From assembly GCF_001286805.1 (NCBI RefSeq), contig NZ_CXYV01000002.1:620001-684000 (forward strand): a stretch of DNA of 64,000 nt, in the 5' to 3' direction. This document shows, in pieces, positions 61,028-64,000 of this stretch (positions within the stretch are counted from its first letter, which is position 1; every line of letters starts with the position of its first letter). The translations under genes and the position numbers were made by a program. Origin of the DNA: Kallipyga gabonensis. GTDB lineage: Bacteria; Bacillota; Clostridia; Tissierellales; Peptoniphilaceae. The notes under the pieces are model-generated. The model saw nothing but the letters and a program-made list of their open reading frames with translations, did no database searches and was not told the origin of the DNA.

Positions 61028-61318
61028 TTAAAGGGGGCAGGTGTTTCCACCAAGATCATCGGCATCCTCCCCTTGCCCATCAAGGAAATGATCCCTGAGG
61101 TATTGGATGATGTCTTCAGATTCGTACATCGCCTGGTCATCAATGAAAAGACAGGGGACCATATCCTGCCCACCCTTTTCGATCAGGTAGTCTTCGTTGG
61201 CGGGATCGGCCTTGATGTCCACTTCCTCAATGCCTTCAATGTGGTTTTTCTCGATAAAAGAGCGAACTTTCTTACAAAAGGGGCAAGTTTCTTTATAAAA
61301 GAGACGGTACTGTGTCAT
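61028..61318 (-). CDS. Glutaredoxin-family protein
   Basis: A 96-residue thioredoxin-fold protein with the redox pair CPFC (12-15), the cis-Pro in VPCLFIDD and the DIIQYL end helix. It would reduce disulfides or carry electrons, for instance to NrdA, whose tail ends in CxxC. The extra acidic C-terminal 15 residues with GNTCPL are not in classical glutaredoxins. AAAGGAA precedes the ATG. It has its own terminator. Confidence 0.9.
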   Translation of the reverse strand: MTQYRLFYKETCPFCKKVRSFIEKNHIEGIEEVDIKADPANEDYLIEKGGQDMVPCLFIDDQAMYESEDIIQYLRDHFLDGQGEDADDLGGNTCPL

Positions 61319-61734: not shown

Positions 61735-61840
61735 TTATCCACCGTTTTGTGGAAAGAATGTGGACAAAAATCCCGCAAACATGGCTTATCCTCAAAATTA
61801 TCCACATTATCCACAGGGTTAGGGAAGAGATTTGTCCACA
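61735..61840. other. DnaA-box cluster
   Basis: Two perfect boxes stand back to back, TTATCCACATTATCCACA (61798-61815). Near matches lie at 61735 (TTATCCACC), 61759 (TGTGGACAA, reverse), 61786 (TTATCCTCA) and 61832 (TTGTCCACA). The cluster sits in a gene-free AT-rich stretch of about 700 bp (61319-62014) between divergent units, glutaredoxin (minus) and hpf (plus). No dnaA gene is visible. It could be an origin, part of one, or a DnaA-binding control site. The frames seen here on both strands show no family features. Confidence 0.65.
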
Positions 61841-61952: not shown

Positions 61953-62014
61953 GTTTTGTAAAAAATAGAGTGGGGTATGTAAAGAGAAAGTAAATCAATA
62001 GAAGGAGGCTCCAT

Positions 62015-62581
62015 ATGAAAGTTCATTTTGTTGGAAAAAATATCTCCATACGTGATAACTTTAAGGACCTGACCCTTGAAAAACTGGAACGACTGGACAA
62101 GTACTTTGACGAAGACGTCAAAGCGACCGTCACCATGTCAACCGAGGGGAGCCAGGAGAAGAGGGTGGAAGTGACTATTCCTGTTCCCGGCTCGGATGCC
62201 ATTCTCCGTGCTGACCAGACCTCCTTTGATATGCTCCAGAGCGTCGACCAGTGCGTTTCGGCCCTGGTTTCTCAGATCCGCAAGTACAAGACCAAGCTGA
62301 AGAACCGTCATAAGGATGGAACAAAGACCGGCTTCCTCTTTGATCAGATCGAAGACCTGCCTGAGGAGGCGGTTGCCGATGATGTACCGGACATTGCCCG
62401 TGTCAAAGAAATCGACGTCCAGCCCATGACTCCGGAAGAAGCCGTTCTTCAAATGGACCTTCTTGGTCACGATTTCTTCCTCTTCCTCAATATGGAAGAA
62501 GACACCCTCTCCGTAGTCTACCGGAGAAAGGCCGGAAACTACGGCATGATTACACCAAGTGAAGGAAGATTCATTAAATAA
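62015..62581 (+). CDS. hpf: Ribosome hibernation-promoting factor, long form
   Basis: Pairs ribosomes into inactive 100S particles in stress or stationary phase. The 188-residue protein has the N-terminal S30AE domain (about 1-105, KVHFVGKNISIRDNFKDLTLEK). A linker follows, then the C-terminal dimerisation domain (about 128-185, KEIDVQPMTPEEAVLQMDLL to VYRRKAGNYGMITP) that marks the long Firmicute type. GAAGGAGG precedes the ATG. secA follows after a terminator, a common order in Firmicutes. Confidence 0.96.
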   Translation: MKVHFVGKNISIRDNFKDLTLEKLERLDKYFDEDVKATVTMSTEGSQEKRVEVTIPVPGSDAILRADQTSFDMLQSVDQCVSALVSQIRKYKTKLKNRHKDGTKTGFLFDQIEDLPEEAVADDVPDIARVKEIDVQPMTPEEAVLQMDLLGHDFFLFLNMEEDTLSVVYRRKAGNYGMITPSEGRFIK

Positions 62582-62806: not shown

Positions 62807-64000
62807 ATGGGTTTATTTGATTTCTTGACCAAGTCCTTCAGTGAAAAGGAAATTGATCGGATTCAACCGCTGGTCAACCGGGTCCTGGATCTGGAGGAAG
62901 AAATGGGGGCCTTGTCCGACCAAGCCCTCCAGGCCAAGACCGAAGAATTTAAGAAGCGTTACCGGGAGGGCGAAACCCTGGATGATCTCCTGGTGGAAGC
63001 TTTCGCCGTTGTCCGGGAAGCCGCCTGGCGGGTCTTGGGCATGAAGCCCTATCCTGTCCAGATCATCGGGGGCATCGTCCTCCACCAGGGCCGGATAGCG
63101 GAGATGAAGACCGGTGAAGGAAAGACCCTGGTCTCCACCATGCCGGCCTACCTCAACGCCATCGCCGGCAAGGGGGTTCATGTTGTCACCGTCAACGACT
63201 ACCTGGCCACCCGTGACTCCGAGTGGATGGGAAAGGTCCATGAATTTCTTGGCCTCCGGGTAGGATGTATTCTTCAGAACATGTCCACCGGTGACCGTCA
63301 GGCCGCCTATAAAGCCGACATCACCTACGGAACCAACAACCAGTTCGGTTTTGACTACCTGAGAGATAACATGGCCATCTACCAAAGCGGTTTGGTACAA
63401 AGGGGCCTCCACTACGCTATCGTTGATGAGGTGGACTCCATCCTGGTCGATGAAGCCCGTACTCCTCTAATTATTTCCGGTCAGGGAGACCCATCAACCG
63501 AAATGTACTCCCGGGCCGACACCTTCATCCAAACTCTGGAAGGCCGGATCATGGACCCGGATGAAGATAATATCAACCCCCTGGACCAGCTCCTGGATGG
63601 AGCCCCGGAACTGGAAACGGTGGATTACCTTGTCGATATGAAGAGGAAATCCGCCAACCTGACCGAGCAGGGTAATGATAAAGCGGAAAAATTCTTCCAT
63701 GTGGACAACATTTCCGACCCCTCTCACATGGAGCTCATGCACTACATCAACCAGGCCCTTAAGGCCCGGACAACCATGAAAAGGGACATTGACTATGTGG
63801 TTGTAGACGATGAGGTCAAGATTGTCGATGAATTCACCGGCCGTATCATGGAAGGGCGCCGGTATTCCGACGGCCTCCACCAGGCCATTGAAGCCAAGGA
63901 ACGGGTCCCCATTAATTCGGAATCCAAGACCCTGGCCACCATTACCTTCCAGAACTTCTTCCTCATGTATGGGAAACTGTCCGGTATGACCGGAACGGCC
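62807..64000 (+). CDS. secA: Preprotein translocase ATPase SecA (partial, 3' end outside)
   Basis: Motor of Sec protein export. The first 398 codons are present and in frame to the window edge. Walker A is in [19 protein letters not shown] (near 102-110); [31 protein letters not shown] and the DEVD box in [19 protein letters not shown] follow. The preprotein cross-linking domain (about 225-370) includes [35 protein letters not shown] (marked by [14 protein letters not shown]). The end [12 protein letters not shown] leads into the second nucleotide-binding domain. ATG at 62807 follows GAAGGG. Confidence 0.97.

Follow-up and report, generated by a model that had tools for sequence, protein, structure and literature searches.

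A conserved DnaA-box cluster upstream of hpf in Kallipyga gabonensis and other Clostridia, a probable DnaA-binding site outside oriC

Introduction

For bacteria other than E. coli, B. subtilis and Caulobacter, little is known about the control of replication initiation, and it is difficult to identify DnaA sites outside oriC that are conserved. The closest described systems are the DnaA-box clusters of B. subtilis (DBCs; Okumura et al. 2012 as cited in PMC5295017; Smith and Grossman, PMC4447404), which, like the locus analysed here, consist of several boxes in non-coding DNA outside oriC. Deletion of six such clusters results in early initiation (PMC5295017), and this makes a DnaA sink the nearest tested model for our locus. 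At the sda promoter of B. subtilis, where the boxes are likewise upstream of a gene, DnaA acts as a direct activator (PMC4447404). The datA and DARS loci of E. coli are also chromosomal box clusters outside oriC, and they affect initiation. Here we describe a box cluster upstream of hpf in the gut bacterium Kallipyga gabonensis and follow it through the order and the class Clostridia.

The DnaA-box cluster of Kallipyga

The genome has 1.62 Mb in two contigs, and the window (the whole stretch of DNA that was analysed, 64 kb) represents positions 620001-684000 of contig 2 (C2, NZ_CXYV01000002.1). DnaA boxes were scored with at most one mismatch to TTATCCACA, so that weak sites are counted. On this basis, there are 6 boxes within 106 bp (61735-61840), two of which are perfect and abut each other while four have one mismatch (Table 1), in agreement with the original prediction, which had been made from the sequence alone. 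It had also correctly described the surroundings as an AT-rich, gene-free gap of about 700 bp between divergent genes. The gap extends over 696 bp from the start of a glutaredoxin-like gene (61318, minus strand) to that of hpf (62015, plus strand), and its GC content is 38%, compared to 56% for the 64-kb window. A 6-kb sample from another part of the genome (G000:C2:760001-766000, L040) has only 35% GC compared to about 50% for the genome, and is possibly foreign DNA.

Table 1. Features in and around the DnaA-box cluster (positions refer to the window).
Feature	Position	Strand	Remarks
Glutaredoxin-like gene, divergent upstream neighbour	61028..61318	-	PF00462; not kept at this place in most relatives
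DnaA box TTATCCACC, one mismatch	61735..61743	+	TTATCCACC/T kept in two congeners; TTATCCACC also at oriC
Weak DnaA-box-like site CTTTCCACA, two mismatches	61748..61756	-	
DnaA box TTGTCCACA, one mismatch, inverted	61759..61767	-	TTGTCCACA variant twice at own oriC
DnaA box TTATCCTCA, one mismatch	61786..61794	+	first box of conserved core, offset 0
Perfect DnaA box TTATCCACA	61798..61806	+	core offset +12
Perfect DnaA box TTATCCACA, abuts box at 61798	61807..61815	+	core offset +21
DnaA box TTGTCCACA, one mismatch	61832..61840	+	offset +46; mostly +44 in relatives
Possible -10 region of hpf promoter, GTGGGGTATG...	61970..61983	+	read from the sequence
hpf, long-form ribosome hibernation promoting factor	62015..62581	+	PF02482 and PF16321 above cut-off
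secA, runs past window end	62807..64000	+	PF07517, PF01043

The box density is far above chance, as had been claimed: when 40,000 sequences were generated from a first-order Markov model of the gap, six of them contained three boxes and none reached four. When 465,800 bases of the genome were sampled (in partly overlapping pieces), at least three boxes with up to one mismatch within about 150 bp were found solely at oriC and at the hpf-side cluster, and the perfect tandem TTATCCACATTATCCACA occurs a single time in the Kallipyga genome. The cluster has the sequence features of a DBC, with closely packed boxes in non-coding DNA, well above chance. The closest named homolog of the Hpf protein is that of Kallipyga massiliensis (97% identity). 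Shortly before hpf, a GGGTAT motif recurs in many relatives, which resembles the -10 element of an alternative sigma factor.

DnaA very probably binds to this cluster, as judged from the identity of the boxes, from variants (TTGTCCACA and TTATCCACC) which are common to the cluster and the organism's own oriC, and from the C-terminal domain of Kallipyga DnaA, which has a normal helix-turn-helix.

Conservation upstream of hpf

Of 61 genomes (Kallipyga and 60 relatives from the same order), 60 yielded an Hpf, and 1 kb upstream was read in all 60, with at least three boxes in 130 bp being counted as a cluster. Within the same family (Peptoniphilaceae), 18 of 37 genomes have a cluster upstream of hpf(-secA), as do 19 of 23 genomes from the rest of the order, representing 14 of 17 families. 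From this distribution, the common ancestor of the order probably had the cluster, with several later losses in the family. For the class, the regions upstream of 60 further hpf genes were taken as an independent sample, picked irrespective of boxes; the same density was found in 16 of them compared to none of 1,200 shuffled sequences, while several families (e.g. f58, f83, f28) are devoid of an hpf cluster. The deep conservation of the cluster, which spans many Clostridia families, was unexpected.

At least nine types of upstream gene alternate within the order while the cluster stays before hpf. These neighbours, which were named by eye except in the window, where HMMs were used, include glutaredoxin, a FUSC-type exporter, a YihY-type gene, HtrA with another gene, flagellar genes of the fliS/flgN type, comFC, a TVP38-type gene, an ABC ATPase, an SDR and others. 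As the cluster remains constant despite this exchange, we consider it to be tied to hpf(-secA). Its distance to the hpf start is variable, ranging from about 85 to 620 bp, and it is larger where operons have been inserted: two families have an operon for an amino-acid ABC transporter between cluster and hpf, which increases the distance up to 3.8 kb. At one locus (L259, genome G026), the cluster and a FUSC-type gene have the opposite orientation to hpf, whose frame showed two stops in the search, so that a rearrangement or decay is possible.

A core of fixed geometry

Part of the cluster has a fixed geometry, with a core of TTTTCCACA-N3-TTATCCACA-TTATCCACA. Allowing up to three mismatches, this core was found in 98 of 391 class genomes, and its reversed version in none. 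With N5 instead of N3 there were matches in two of the 391 genomes, one of which is the site of an N3 match while the other is at an hpf locus. For 99 core sites hpf could be placed; 34 of them precede hpf by at most 1 kb and another 10 by 1-5 kb; these shares are lower bounds, as contig breaks were scored as 'elsewhere', and 24 of the placements were made by hand. All 44 sites up to 5 kb upstream of hpf are on the same strand as hpf. In those 1-5 kb cases that were read, an amino-acid ABC transporter operon follows the cluster.

At 57 loci that were anchored on the core, additional boxes on the same strand, which had no part in the anchoring, accumulate at -30 to -32 (32 loci) and at +44 (15 loci); as some of these loci had been found by searching for the core itself, and relatives do not count as independent genomes, the counts should not be read as probabilities. 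Kallipyga has the core with a box at +46, and its upstream box is inverted. Judged by eye, the letters between the boxes vary from locus to locus, and the boxes themselves drift to other DnaA-box variants (TTATACACA, TTATGCACA, TTTTCCACA) while the spacing holds. In five genomes of one genus (f44, g81; L104-L108), the box-N3-box-box core is distant from hpf, and in the two of these that were read it is in the gap after a beta-glucosidase-like gene. In family f59, a second core site is found about 9 kb from dnaA in two genomes (L122, L123; G101:C1:1007232 and G302:C63:18140).

These data also bear on the nature of the repeats. DnaA binding to the cluster is a prediction, and the repeats might instead resemble DnaA boxes while serving a different regulator or forming an RNA leader element, or they might be a product of chance. 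However, the 9-mer consensus and its variants are those of oriC, the drift leads toward other DnaA-box variants with the spacing being kept, there is no Rfam match at the cluster, and chance is excluded by the Markov, shuffle and N5 comparisons. We therefore consider this explanation to be very improbable.

Relation to the replication origin

The original prediction had considered an unusual origin location and had pointed out correctly that no dnaA gene adjoins. A dense cluster within an AT-rich gap does speak for an origin. The dnaA gene is at about 371 kb of contig 2, as part of a minus-strand series rpmH-dnaA-dnaN-recF-gyrB-gyrA (rpmH, recF and the gyrase genes were recognised from the sequence by eye), while the cluster is at 681.7 kb, on the right replichore and 310 kb away. 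There are 7 boxes between rpmH and dnaA, and the dnaA-dnaN gap carries CTATCCACA, followed by a GC spacer and the DnaA-trio run TACTGCTATTACTACTAA, so that a complete canonical oriC is present. Samples from about 55 places of contig 2 show that both the GC skew and the orientation of long ORFs change over at about 0.36-0.40 Mb and again at about 1.15 Mb. The sampled skew hence turns at dnaA, which is part of the evidence that the prediction itself had named as speaking against an origin at the cluster.

The cluster is neither beside dnaA nor at the GC-skew minimum, and the series of box, GC spacer and trio is missing. A DnaA-trio was found neither at the window cluster nor at any of 43 hpf loci from relatives, and of 20 class members whose origin regions were examined, 17 do not show the core geometry there. 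In three genomes of family f74 (L202, L203, L204), the box-N3-box-box core is in the dnaA-dnaN gap, directly before the DnaA-trio run, which indicates that this geometry is usable by origins even though it is not the usual origin design. As far as can be told from the sequence, it is ruled out that the hpf-side cluster is the replication origin; this reading was dropped because of the canonical oriC and the skew, and a second origin at this site is extremely improbable as well.

Clusters near tsaD and ABC-F genes

A second conserved cluster is located beyond the 3′ end of tsaD (gcp). In family genomes which lack the hpf cluster, the same core is often found elsewhere, mostly close to where tsaD or an ABC-F gene has its 3′ end. 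The core is near the 3′ end of tsaD and/or the ABC-F ATPase gene at L241, L246, L249, L255, L256, L257, L258, L260 and L264 (~1436-1530). In other families of the order, box clusters after tsaD occur at L270, L271, L276, L277, L284 and L285, with a recurrent spacing of their own, which in L271 is 9, 43, 12 and 9 bp (minus strand) and which other loci share in part.

Outside the family, both the hpf-side and the tsaD-side cluster are present in 7 of 8 order genomes tested. In the family, 10 genomes that have the hpf cluster and 10 that lack it were compared: a tsaD-side cluster was found in none of the former and in 4 of the latter, or in 5 when one by an ABC-F gene is included (Fisher two-sided p, calculated by hand, 0.09 and 0.03, respectively). 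That the two clusters replace each other in the family is only suggestive, as genome G018 carries both. Such a replacement would fit a genome-wide role in DnaA binding better than a role tied to hpf.

These sites have also to be considered when the cluster is interpreted as a transcription control site, where DnaA or ATP-DnaA would switch hpf, and perhaps secA, in a coupling of replication to hibernation, with any effect on initiation being incidental. The association with hpf is specific and directional and outlasts changes of the upstream neighbour, and several such clusters in B. subtilis, including sda, are sites where DnaA acts as a transcription factor (PMC4447404). Transcriptional coupling would be compatible with the finding that the sites have a single orientation relative to hpf. 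However, a fixed place of the boxes relative to gene or promoter, as for an sda-type promoter, is not seen, and the variable distance together with the inserted ABC operon argues against a simple promoter switch. In addition, about half of the family has lost the cluster and yet kept hpf, and at tsaD and ABC-F genes the same geometry is also found between the 3′ ends of convergent genes, where no promoter is expected. The strict hpf-promoter reading is weakened by the operon cases and by the tsaD/ABC-F sites, and we consider transcription control to be an unlikely, albeit not negligible, explanation of the cluster.

Proposed role of the cluster

In summary, the hpf-side cluster probably represents a control site of old age to which DnaA binds. 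We favour, with some confidence, that it is a conserved cooperative DnaA-binding site outside oriC which holds DnaA and thereby tunes initiation, and which may also tie hpf expression to DnaA. DnaA would bind cooperatively to the array box-N21-box-N3-box-box-N14-box and form a nucleoprotein patch. As an origin-proximal cluster would be copied by the fork soon after initiation, the number of sites would double and free DnaA would fall, which would delay the next round of initiation. With the cluster being located before hpf, the level or nucleotide state of DnaA may influence hpf. The parts of this proposal differ in strength: a role in initiation control seems slightly favoured, control of hpf is conceivable but rather doubtful, and the two roles are not mutually exclusive. 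What speaks against our interpretation is that about half of the family has no hpf cluster.

In single-contig genomes, the cluster is about 0.05-0.25 genome lengths from dnaA (hand arithmetic). This position was dropped as evidence for titration, as hpf is equally origin-proximal without the cluster. The titration or reactivation of DnaA that had originally been suggested has become more likely through the deep conservation with fixed geometry, and the sequence is alike compatible with a sink, an inactivator, a reactivator or promoter control. Instead of being a passive sink, the site might actively convert ATP-DnaA and ADP-DnaA into each other, as a datA-like or DARS-like element. The fixed spacing does suggest a defined higher-order complex, but datA of E. 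coli needs IHF, and the review PMC5295017 does not mention an element of this kind in B. subtilis, so that we regard active conversion as improbable.

In the most far-reaching form of this proposal, DnaA would directly control Hpf across a large part of the Clostridia, via an old five-box element of fixed geometry. We put this forward only tentatively. If true, the replication initiator would set the number of ribosomes that are put to sleep. The location before hpf makes the link between replication and translational dormancy directly testable, and as box spacing and orientation are kept over many Clostridia families, a defined DNA element becomes available for studies of DnaA titration.

Comparison with known DnaA-binding sites

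The hpf-side site appears, from its sequence, to be kin of the known DnaA clusters outside oriC. In the searchable literature, which leaves many subscription papers outside, we did not find its location at hpf, any DnaA boxes described with hpf, yvyD or ribosome hibernation, or the fixed core geometry. For B. subtilis, none of the strong DnaA regions listed in the main text of PMC4447404 is at hpf/yvyD, and these gene names are absent from it. One of these strong regions, located downstream of gcp and ydiF, has its counterpart in the clusters beyond tsaD, and by the ABC-F gene, in this order. The gene context of E. coli datA and DARS differs from that of the hpf-side cluster. From the sda promoter cluster it differs by its variable distance to the gene and in that an effect of DnaA on hpf is a candidate. 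The same 9-mer boxes in the same cluster density are found in the bipartite oriC of C. difficile (PMC7561715), whose clostridial layout, with rpmH-dnaA and dnaA-dnaN regions, is also that of the Kallipyga origin. In contrast to such clostridial origins, with which it shares its boxes and their density, the window cluster is not adjacent to dnaA, and a DnaA-trio is absent.
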